A DNA stretch of 39,583 nt from Candidatus Woesearchaeota archaeon (GTDB lineage: Archaea > Nanobdellota > Nanobdellia > Woesearchaeales > GW2011-AR4). The stretch covers positions 1-39,583 of the forward strand of contig JACPTC010000042.1 in the NCBI GenBank assembly GCA_016192985.1. Direction: 5' to 3'. The notes under the pieces are model-generated. The model saw only the letters and a list, made by a program, of their open reading frames with translations. It did no database searches and was not told the DNA's origin. The number at the start of each line of letters is the position of its first letter. The first letter of the stretch is position 1. Positions 3,806-7,083 of the stretch are shown here, piece by piece. The translations under genes and the position numbers were made by a program.

Positions 3806-4873
3806 ATGGGAAAGATATTCTTTACACCAGGGCCAACACAGGTTTATGACAGTGTTCCACATTACATTAATGATGCAATAAATAAAGATATATGCTCAAT
3901 ATCCCATCGCGGCAGGGAATTCCAGCAAATCTTTCAGGATGCCGTTTCATCTTTGAAAAAATTTCTTAATGTTCCAGATGAATTTCATGTATTCTTTTTG
4001 GGTTCAGCAACAGAAGCCATGGAAAGAATAATAGAAAATTGCGTTGCCAAGTGTAGCTACCATTTTGTAAATGGCTCTTTCTCAAAAAGGTTTTTTACAA
4101 TAGCGCAGGAGCTTGGGAAAGTTCCGCAAAAGCTTGAAGCCGATTTAGGCAGAGGCTTTGACTTTGGCAGGACAGAGATTCCAGATGAAGCAGAGATAAT
4201 ATGCTTCACACAAAACGAGACAAGCACAGGCACAGCTGTTGATGTTAATGACCTTAATTTGATAAAAGAAAACTATCCTGACAAGATTATCGCCGTTGAC
4301 ATCGTGTCATCTGTTCCTTATGTTAATATAGATTACTCTCTAATAGATTGCACATTCTTTTCTGTTCAAAAAGGATTTGGACTGCCTGCTGGCTTGGGGG
4401 TATTGATTCTTAATAACAAACTTATTGAAAAATCAAGATTGCTTGCAGGCAAAGGCTACACTGTTGGGAGCTATCACAACTTCATAAACTTACTAAAATC
4501 TGCAGAAAAAAATCAAACTCCTGAAACACCTAATGTTTTGGGGATATATCTTCTTGGAAAAATATGCAATGAATTGCATCAAAAAGGCATCGATAGGATA
4601 AGAAGAGAAACGGATAAAAAAGCTGAAATTTTGTATAAGTTTTTTGACGCCCATAACCTATACAAGCCTTTTGTTAATGACAAATCAGTAAGGTCAAAGA
4701 CAATTATTGCAATAAACGCTTCAAATCCACAAGAACTAATAAAAAAATTATCAGAAAATGGATTTGTTGTCGGCTCTGGATATGGCGACTACAAAAACAG
4801 CCAGATAAGGATAGCAAACTTTCCTATGCATAAGATCAGTGATGTGGAAGAAATGCTCGATCATGCTGAGTAA
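3806..4873 (+). CDS. serC: Class V aminotransferase, phosphoserine aminotransferase
   Basis: PLP-dependent fold-type I, class V aminotransferase of 355 residues, taken to convert 3-phosphohydroxypyruvate plus glutamate to phosphoserine. The N-terminus FFTPGPTQV is the class hallmark, SHRGREFQQI is the typical SerC His-Arg-Gly segment, and the cofactor lysine is in SVQKGFGLPAGLG, preceded by the PLP-binding Asp in AVDIVSSVP. Together with the upstream SerB-SerA fusion, 1 nt away, it completes the three-step pathway; this context separates it from alanine-glyoxylate aminotransferases of the same class. Its last 13 nt overlap the convergent dphB. Confidence 0.88.
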   Translation: MGKIFFTPGPTQVYDSVPHYINDAINKDICSISHRGREFQQIFQDAVSSLKKFLNVPDEFHVFFLGSATEAMERIIENCVAKCSYHFVNGSFSKRFFTIAQELGKVPQKLEADLGRGFDFGRTEIPDEAEIICFTQNETSTGTAVDVNDLNLIKENYPDKIIAVDIVSSVPYVNIDYSLIDCTFFSVQKGFGLPAGLGVLILNNKLIEKSRLLAGKGYTVGSYHNFINLLKSAEKNQTPETPNVLGIYLLGKICNELHQKGIDRIRRETDKKAEILYKFFDAHNLYKPFVNDKSVRSKTIIAINASNPQELIKKLSENGFVVGSGYGDYKNSQIRIANFPMHKISDVEEMLDHAE

Positions 4874-5616
4874 ATTTTCAAACACTCTTCTTCCATAAAG
4901 TGCAGCTTTCCAGGCACTATCAGGCAATGAACAGGCTTGCCGAAATCAGTTTTTAAGATTTCTTTTGCAGTTCCTGCTTTAATAGCTTGGCTTTCGCTTC
5001 CAATTCTTGCGCATCCAACACAAAATGCTTTTTCAGAAAAAATCTTTCCGTTTCTTTTAAGTTCAATTTTCAATAAATACCTTATTGCGTCATTTATTGT
5101 CAAAAATTTGTCTTCTTCGGGATTCAAGTCGAGCAAAAATAATGTGTGCAATCCCAAGGTTAGGTTATCTTTCAAAACATCATAGGGTGTTTCAATACTC
5201 TCATTTTGCAATGGAATGCTCGTTGTTTTACCAAACTTGTAAATCTGTAGTCCAGTTATACTGATTGCTGTGATTATTGAAGAACTATGAATTACCTTAC
5301 ATTTTATCCCTTCTTTTTTGGCTCTCAAAAACAAATCTATGTGTGTTGTTGCTACTAATGGATCGCCAGCAACAAGAAAAGCAACATTTTTTGTTTTTGC
5401 ATTCTCTATAATCCCATTGTCATCAGCTTCAACAACTATCCTTCTTGCAAAAATTATTTTTTTATTATAGAATTTTTCCAAATCCTCTTTTTTGCAGTTC
5501 AGAATGGAAGTATAATTCTCAAGGTAAACAACATCGCATTTTTTTATAGCTTCGAGTCCGTTGATTGTGATGTCTTTTTCGTTGTTTAAACCAAGACCGA
5601 TAAAAAAAAGTGGCAT
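4861..5616 (-). CDS. dphB: Diphthine synthase (EF-2 diphthamide methyltransferase)
   Basis: 251-residue tetrapyrrole-methylase-fold SAM enzyme that methylates the modified histidine of elongation factor 2 during diphthamide synthesis, an archaeal and eukaryotic pathway. Visible marks are the N-terminal MPLFFIGLGLNNEKDIT, VVYLENYTSI, the SAM-binding GDPLVATTH, and HSSSIITAISITGLQIYKFG, all typical of DphB. The length matches the family (about 250-270). The gene overlaps the 3' end of serC by 13 nt tail to tail. Its promoter must lie in the 5617-6000 intergenic region shared with ftsZ, where a 16-nt palindrome is found. Confidence 0.96.
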   Translation of the reverse strand: MPLFFIGLGLNNEKDITINGLEAIKKCDVVYLENYTSILNCKKEDLEKFYNKKIIFARRIVVEADDNGIIENAKTKNVAFLVAGDPLVATTHIDLFLRAKKEGIKCKVIHSSSIITAISITGLQIYKFGKTTSIPLQNESIETPYDVLKDNLTLGLHTLFLLDLNPEEDKFLTINDAIRYLLKIELKRNGKIFSEKAFCVGCARIGSESQAIKAGTAKEILKTDFGKPVHCLIVPGKLHFMEEECLKIYSA

Positions 5617-5680: not shown

Positions 5681-5706
5681 AACCTATACATTTAACCTTA
5701 GAAATC

Positions 5707-5714
5707 TTTATAAA
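5707..5714 (+). promoter_or_regulatory. TATA-like box upstream of the stem-loop region
   Basis: TTTATAAA at 5707-5714 would place a transcription start near 5735-5740, just before the first stem-loop at 5757. A second TATA-like element, GTTTATATT (5949-5957), could give a short leader directly before ftsZ. The two are alternatives or dual promoters. Confidence 0.4.
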
Positions 5715-5756
5715 TTAATTTAATCATTAAAGTAAAATTAAGAAAAGATTAAATAT

Positions 5757-5958
5757 GAGTTTTTTTGGCGAAAAACTCAACTAAAGCAGCTTTTTTGGCG
5801 AAAAGCAGCTTAAAATCGTCTTGTTTGATGAATTCTAGTTTTTTAGTACGGGAAAAACTATAAAACACAATTAAATCAGTTTGTTGGCACAAACTAATTC
5901 TAAATGGGTAAGTGAAGAAGAGCAATATAAACATTTCGGTAATGAGAAGTTTATATTG
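5757..5958 (+). ncRNA. Stem-loop array before ftsZ (long leader or separate small RNA)
   Basis: Four consecutive hairpins lie within 140 nt. HP1 5757-5778: GAGTTTTT, loop TTGGCG, AAAAACTC. HP2 5784-5811: AAGC-A-GCTTTT, loop TTGGCG, AAAAGC-A-GCTT, one A-A mismatch. HP3 5836-5860: TAGTTTTT, loop TAGTACGGG, AAAAACTA. HP4 5878-5895: AGTTTG, loop TTGGCA, CAAACT. A fifth hairpin, with 10-bp arms CAATATAAAC/GTTTATATTG (5923-5958), contains a TATA-like element. Three loops share TTGGCR while the stems differ, which suggests a recognised RNA loop. No family I know matches. It may be the ftsZ 5' UTR or an independent RNA. Confidence 0.5.
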
Positions 5959-6000
5959 AAAACTATATTATGAAAACCACGAGGCTGAGGTAAGAGGGGG

Positions 6001-7083
6001 ATGGTAAAAATGGATTTTTTAGTTGAAGGAGCATTAAAACAAGCTGCAGATACAAGCTTGAGCTTTGAAGTCGGACAGGCAAACATAAAAGTTATTGGGG
6101 TTGGAGGAGCTGGCAACAACATGGTCGGCTGGCTCTACAAAAAAGGAATTAAGGGTGCTGAAATCATAGCCTGCAATACTGACAAACAGCATCTTGGCAT
6201 AATAGATGCAGATCGCAAGTTTCTGATTGGAAAAGGCGTAACTAGGGGATTAGGCTGCGGCGGCTTTCCAGAAAAAGGAGCTGAAGCAGCAAAAGAGTCT
6301 TTGCAAGAGCTCAAAGAATCCTTGAAAGGGGCCGACATGGTGTTTGTATGCGCTGGCATGGGTGGCGGCACAGGCACAGGAGCTGCTCCTGTTGTAGCAA
6401 GTATTGCAAAAGATACAGGAGCTATTGTAATAGGAACTGTTACAATGCCATTCAAAATTGAAAGGGCGCGAGTAGACAAAGCTGAATTTGGGTTGCACCA
6501 GCTAAGGCAAGTTTCTGACACTGCAATTGTGATTGACAATAACCGCTTGGTGCAAATTGCAGGCAATCTGCCAATACAGCAGGCTTTTGCGGTTGCAAAT
6601 GAGCTGGTTTCAACAATGATTAAAGGAATTGTTGAAACAATTGCTGTCCCTTCATTGGTTAACTTGGACTATGCAGATGTAAAGGCAATAATGCAAAATG
6701 GCGGAGTAGCGGTTATTGGAGTGGGCTCTTCTGACACTAACAGCAGGGTAGAAGAAGCTGTAAAAGGCGCTTTGGCAAATCCACTATTGGAAGTTGATTA
6801 CAGAGGCGCAACTGGAGCTTTGATACATGTTATTGGCGGCCCTGACATGACTCTTGATGATATCAACAAAGTAGGCGAACTAGTGACAGAAAGTCTTGAT
6901 GACGATGCAAACGTTATCTGGGGCGCTAGAGTTGTTGATGACATGAAAGGCAAGCTTAGTGTTATGACTATCATAACGGGCGTCAAAAGCCCATGGGTGC
7001 TTGGCAAGGTAGATTACAGCAAGCCGTCGCAAGAAGCGGTTGCAGTCAGTCAGGAGCTTGGCATAGAATTAGTTGACTCATAA
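6001..7083 (+). CDS. ftsZ: Cell division protein FtsZ
   Basis: Tubulin-family GTPase that polymerises into the division ring on the inner face of the membrane. In 360 residues it has the N-terminal nucleotide-binding IKVIGVGGAGNNMV, the tubulin signature GMGGGTGTGAAPVV, and the T7 synergy loop NLDYADV with the catalytic Asp. The C-terminal domain runs to about residue 335, followed by a short tail ending GIELVDS. GAGGT at 5987-5991, 9 nt before the ATG, is a good Shine-Dalgarno sequence; an ATG at 6010 is an alternative that fits GAGGGGG. The gene stands alone, with hairpin-rich DNA on both sides. Confidence 0.97.
   Translation: MVKMDFLVEGALKQAADTSLSFEVGQANIKVIGVGGAGNNMVGWLYKKGIKGAEIIACNTDKQHLGIIDADRKFLIGKGVTRGLGCGGFPEKGAEAAKESLQELKESLKGADMVFVCAGMGGGTGTGAAPVVASIAKDTGAIVIGTVTMPFKIERARVDKAEFGLHQLRQVSDTAIVIDNNRLVQIAGNLPIQQAFAVANELVSTMIKGIVETIAVPSLVNLDYADVKAIMQNGGVAVIGVGSSDTNSRVEEAVKGALANPLLEVDYRGATGALIHVIGGPDMTLDDINKVGELVTESLDDDANVIWGARVVDDMKGKLSVMTIITGVKSPWVLGKVDYSKPSQEAVAVSQELGIELVDS

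Follow-up and report, generated by a model that had tools for sequence, protein, structure and literature searches.

Stem-loops with closely similar loops precede ftsZ in a 39,583-nucleotide stretch of DNA from Candidatus Woesearchaeota archaeon (the window, meaning the whole stretch that was analysed), which raises the question of what such an array does ahead of a cell division gene. To our knowledge, the means by which archaea adjust the amount of FtsZ have been little explored; we know of no RNA regulator of this protein.

Hairpins with a common hexaloop precede ftsZ

The sequence-only reading had described four hairpins, three of them with the loops TTGGCG, TTGGCG and TTGGCA, plus a fifth, larger one, and all were found where it had placed them:

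5757-5778, plus strand: HP1, GAGTTTTT and AAAAACTC around the hexaloop TTGGCG (5765-5770), which reads CGCCAA on the minus strand
5784-5811, plus strand: HP2, core GCTTTT and AAAAGC around TTGGCG (5795-5800), with an A.A mismatch in the stem
5836-5860, plus strand: HP3, TAGTTTTT and AAAAACTA around the larger loop TAGTACGGG
5878-5895, plus strand: HP4, AGTTTG and CAAACT around TTGGCA (5884-5889)
5923-5958, no strand assigned: 'HP5', an inverted repeat, CAATATAAAC...GTTTATATTG, whose 5' arm is the promoter PAS described below
5996-6000, plus strand: GGGGG, ribosome-binding-site-like; a G-rich stretch before the start is kept in relatives
6010-7083, plus strand: ftsZ (Pfam Tubulin PF00091, 4.4e-47; FtsZ_C PF12327, 6e-32)

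These hairpins are genuine and under strong selection, and a chance origin is excluded because relatives keep the array. The segment 5740-6010 folds at -57.5 kcal/mol, compared with -44.9 ± 4.18 for shuffled sequences (z -3.0; 0 of 200 shuffles as good). HP3 lies outside the TTGGCR set in the window's genus and can be aligned across that genus. A coding role for the array was rejected, as its reading frames are about as long as those of shuffled sequence and the loop spacing is spread over three frames; the short frame MSFFGEKLN had rightly been taken for a by-product of the repeat, its ATG not being conserved.

Rfam covariance models gave no match at the gathering threshold over the array in the window and 18 relatives, and at E up to 10 only chance-level matches over the array; the Rfam-style name 'ftsZ-DE' was not found. 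Within its own genome, the single-hairpin model at E<=0.05 matched HP1 alone, and the exact sequence TTTTTGGCGAAA occurs three times, the third copy within apparent coding sequence. The genome holds three ftsZ copies, the others being on C65 (77%) and C5 (51%). Since the homology of relatives starts at 6010, the start of the gene is most likely the ATG at 6010 rather than that at 6001.

One loop is kept on changing stems

The array is present in 26/26 family loci of this ftsZ, and HP1 is kept in every one of the 26. Absence of stems and loops from close relatives, which had been named as grounds for abandoning the sequence-only reading, was thus not what we found. We then examined 86 same-order leaders from genomes outside the window's family, of which 65 carry a TTGGCG hexaloop on at least 4 paired bases before ftsZ, while a paired TTGGCR loop is absent from 21. 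These 86 leaders hold 178 copies of TTGGCG, each point variant occurring 0-15 times, and its orientation is constant, with 0 occurrences of CGCCAA on the plus strand. An unbiased tally of hairpin loops returned TTGGCG at the top as well (71 copies in 48 genomes; 8 for the runner-up). The stems are diverse: among 146 there are 88 distinct 6-nt stems. When every TTGGCG copy was taken, with pairing not required (200 copies, 76 genomes), flanking pairs 1-6 were Watson-Crick at a frequency of 0.69-0.81 versus 0.27-0.45 in shuffled sequence (sd 0.03), and the covarying flanks use all four Watson-Crick pair types. The earlier proposal that selection acts on the loop and leaves the stems free is borne out by this conserved hexamer on varying, paired stems.

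Outside the order but within the class, TTGGCG flanked by 4 or more paired bases is present in 7/30 leaders, and others carry related loops, such as TTGGGCG, TTGAGCG or CGGCTAA, on paired stems. Seven leaders (L178, L179, L197, L204, L205, L212 and L223) have no TTGGCG array and show different short repeats (TTGGTT, AGGCGG, CGGCTA, TGGGTT, CGGTAG), several of which precede a TTCT motif. At one further locus (L014, 1208-1509), a 36-nt duplication lies in the array between HP2 and HP3.

The array is tied to ftsZ

A two-hairpin pattern scanned over 84,980 genomes gave 105 matches, 36 of them before ftsZ with stems of 5-12 bp. The remaining 69 have stems of 3-5 bp, as chance would give, apart from three exceptions: two are copies of the array for which ftsZ was not detected within 400 nt, and the third is an odd case. 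The named carriers are filed as Woesearchaeota, as Nanoarchaeota or as unnamed archaeal MAGs, together with one contig under Deltaproteobacteria (L096) that bears an archaeal array with ftsZ, and whose filing is probably a binning error. These names suggest that the window's order is Woesearchaeales. The single-hairpin covariance model, run on whole genomes, matched almost exclusively before ftsZ, and a genome-wide regulon was rejected on that ground.

In genome G045 (C2, near 20358; L279 1499-1522), one of the UUGGCG hairpins of the ftsZ leader recurs, identical over all 24 nt, in a second leader, which is multibranched, has its own promoter and precedes the gene of a 73-aa antitoxin-like protein. 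This second leader is a possible trans target by its sequence; we set the candidate aside, the site being confined to one genome and TTGGCG or CGCCAA occurring in only 5/30 upstream regions of related genes.

Promoter signatures converge on the array

Two TATA-like boxes had been reported to bracket the array. Both are real; the right one, taken without regard to its direction, reads canonically on the minus strand and therefore points back into the array. The features are as follows, with rough scores from a promoter model built from 9 window sites:

5700-5715, plus strand: sense promoter P1, AGAAATCTTTATAAAT (BRE + TATA), rough PWM score 13.2, predicted start near 5736
5736-6009, plus strand: predicted ftsZ leader (sense RNA), ~270 nt, deduced from P1 and the ftsZ start
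5923-5938, minus strand: antisense promoter PAS, CGAAATGTTTATATTG on the minus strand, rough PWM score 10.0, inside 'HP5'
5898-5902, minus strand: conserved TTCTA (TAGAA on the minus strand), predicted antisense start near 5901
5736-5901, minus strand: predicted antisense RNA, ~165 nt, with TGCCAA/CGCCAA loops and a U-rich end (complement of 5736-5755)

P1 reads as a canonical plus-strand promoter and ranks in the top two of the ~79,000 positions that the model scored in the window, and 62/67 same-order genomes have a plus-strand site ahead of the first loop, mostly 43-71 nt away. On the other side, a BRE/TATA signature within the leader points through the hairpins on the opposite strand. The spacing between PAS and TTCTA is 25-27 nt in 24/25 family genomes. 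In the same order, 70/78 genomes have a minus-strand site at most 60 nt after TTCT[AGT], in 68 of them at a spacing of 24-32 nt, mostly 25-27, with two outliers at 48 and 53. This fixed spacing is independent of the promoter model, and when genomes were aligned with the TTCT that follows the last loop as their sole anchor, a minus-strand box appeared at the same place. As transcription is expected to start at about this distance from a TATA box, we predict an antisense RNA that begins near 5901. Runs of A4, which would be U-tracts in the antisense RNA, precede HP1 in 43/59 same-order genomes and runs of T4 in 9. The predicted extent of the antisense RNA was deduced from PAS, TTCTA and the U-tract.

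The fifth 'hairpin' accordingly reads differently from how it had been presented. The inverted repeat is there, and it appears to be mainly the PAS promoter: its pairing as an RNA hairpin shows a weak excess (flank complementarity 4.67 vs 4.22 ± 0.11), and we rejected that role. Its 3' arm is a weaker plus-strand TATA-like site (score 6.3 on the same rough scale) that may serve as a second, short-leader promoter of ftsZ; such second plus-strand sites number 26 in 78 genomes, ~2x chance.

Stem mismatches suggest folding of the minus strand

At interior stem positions, A.C on the plus strand, which is G.U on the minus strand, outnumbers plus-strand G.U by 51 to 11 (37 vs 10 genomes); with the 3'-most hairpin left out, the counts are 25 and 9 (binomial 2.8e-7 for all and 0.009 for this subset, with shared ancestry ignored). 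At the HP4 position, for instance, many relatives have a C.A pair on the plus strand, which is G.U on the minus strand. The spacers are richer in G than in C on the plus strand (458 vs 303), and this would favour the opposite bias; the A.C excess therefore suggests selection on the minus-strand fold, that of the antisense RNA. Directly beside the loop the wobble bias is reversed (T.G 10 vs C.A 2), and the two strands are not distinguished by mean fold energy.

Proposed antisense kissing-loop control of ftsZ and its rivals

Taken together, we consider it somewhat more probable than the contrary that a chromosomal pair of sense and antisense RNAs controls ftsZ by kissing loops and that the array is where the two interact. 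P1 would produce the ftsZ mRNA, whose ~270-nt leader would display hairpins with U-turn-type UUGGCR loops; PAS, lying within that leader, would produce the ~165-nt antisense RNA from near 5901, with complementary YGCCAA loops. The loops would kiss, pairing would then extend along the stems, and ftsZ output would be lowered or tuned by the resulting duplex or by convergent transcription itself, the sign of the effect being as conjectural as the production of the two RNAs. Conserved hairpins in the ftsZ leader do share a recognition loop, and UUGG of UUGGCG fits YUNR, a U-turn motif described as ubiquitous among the recognition loops of antisense RNAs whose pairing begins with loop-loop contact (PMC4485353). 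The variants UUGGGCG, UUGAGCG, UUAGCG and CGGCUAA each contain a YUNR as well.

Several observations sit less easily with kissing. An antisense RNA that overlaps its target over the full length will match whatever loops are there, and kissing by itself does not require them to be alike; the wobble bias next to the loop is reversed; 21/86 leaders have no paired TTGGCR; and the weak second plus-strand promoter could yield a short ftsZ mRNA free of the array. The first of these bears on a loop-binding protein, for which the UUGGCR hairpins of the sense leader would form a multivalent site, as GGA loops do for CsrA. Such a factor would demand alike loops within each leader, which kissing alone does not, and each leader does use one loop sequence, as a single recognising factor would expect; lineages also switch the motif in concert (TTGGCG, TTGGGCG, TTGAGCG, CGGCTAA), and T.G closing pairs are tolerated on the plus strand. 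Nevertheless we hold this explanation to be unlikely. It predicts neither the minus-strand promoter nor the bias to A.C over G.U on the plus strand, it has no candidate protein to offer, and matches of the whole-genome model fall almost solely at ftsZ. The sequence-only reading, which had proposed a loop-recognising partner, was thus right about selection on the loop, whereas a purely sense-strand protein leaves the A.C bias unpredicted.

That reading had also offered a separate small RNA or a long structured leader. A stand-alone small RNA, transcribed from the minus strand and acting in trans on other mRNAs, with its place beside ftsZ due to no more than linkage through a shared promoter, would account for the apparent selection on PAS and on the minus-strand fold and for the identical hairpin in the antitoxin-like leader of G045; we rate it as rather improbable, since that second site occurs in one genome, the related upstream regions mostly lack the motif (the 5/30 above), and P1, aimed through the array at ftsZ, is also well conserved. 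A leader that acts by itself on mRNA stability, translation or leader folding, with no partner, is the simplest plus-strand reading and agrees with P1, the leader position of the hairpins and the strong fold. It explains neither a near-invariant loop on changing stems nor PAS, and we give it little credence. Least probable, to our mind, is an element that works as DNA, as binding sites or cruciforms between promoters: the palindromes are indeed flanked by two promoters, but their arms have no common sequence, and nothing in DNA explains the A.C over G.U bias.

If antisense kissing-loop control holds, cell division would be under the control of a chromosomal RNA widely among DPANN archaea, with a striking convergence on a plasmid kissing loop; the proposal makes one exact prediction, an antisense RNA from near 5901. 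The array is also a natural experiment on RNA loop requirements, with dozens of unrelated stems on one loop. The broader proposal, that an antisense RNA kept across a DPANN order and its neighbours sets the FtsZ dose, that UUGGCG converged with plasmids and that loop copies change together, we put forward more cautiously, as tenable and a little short of probable.

Likeness to known systems

The closest parallel is the antisense control of replication in IncI/IncB/IncK/IncL-M/IncF plasmids, as in the Inc RNA and repZ leader of ColIb-P9, in which the same loop, 5'-rUUGGCG-3', stands on a hairpin of the sense leader and is the Inc RNA target loop according to Asano et al. (1998, J Biol Chem 273:11826), as cited in PMC10724649 and PMC4374534. 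Shared features are an antisense RNA transcribed off the other strand (here predicted), complementary loops, a U-turn, interior stem mismatches, and pairing begun by loop kissing, which at ftsZ is suggested by sequence. The differences are that the locus described here lies on an archaeal chromosome with archaeal promoters, that its target is ftsZ and not a plasmid rep gene, and that it usually has two to four hairpins with unrelated stems. The pseudoknot partner of the ColIb-P9 type, CGCCAA before the ribosome-binding site, occurs in 0/86 same-order leaders. The resemblance is one of loop and layout and gives no evidence of common descent.

The antisense recognition loops of hok/sok and CopA/CopT are examples of the YUNR/U-turn type, which UUGG fits; at ftsZ the kissing is proposed. 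CsrA/Rsm arrays present GGA in a hexaloop; they are similar in having several leader hairpins with a GG-containing hexaloop, whereas the loops here lack GGA and a candidate CsrA was not identified. In haloarchaea, CdrS, a ribbon-helix-helix transcriptional regulator (PMC7439475, PMC8406309), is a dedicated regulator of ftsZ, though a protein rather than an RNA. In the literature that we searched on ftsZ leaders or antisense RNA of Woesearchaeota and DPANN, and on kissing-loop antisense RNAs of archaea, we found no such report.

Neighbouring genes and paralogue loci

The divergent neighbour at 4861-5616 on the minus strand encodes a TP_methylase-family protein, diphthine-synthase-like, and antisense read-through would run into this gene. 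At the loci of the 77% ftsZ paralogue, three relatives (L028, L030 and L031) have no such array. The upstream regions of these three paralogues have in common an element like AGTATACNAAAACGT ahead of the TATA box, and many array loci have the similar AATATACTAAAACCTATA upstream of P1; elements of this kind are perhaps the site of a common regulator.
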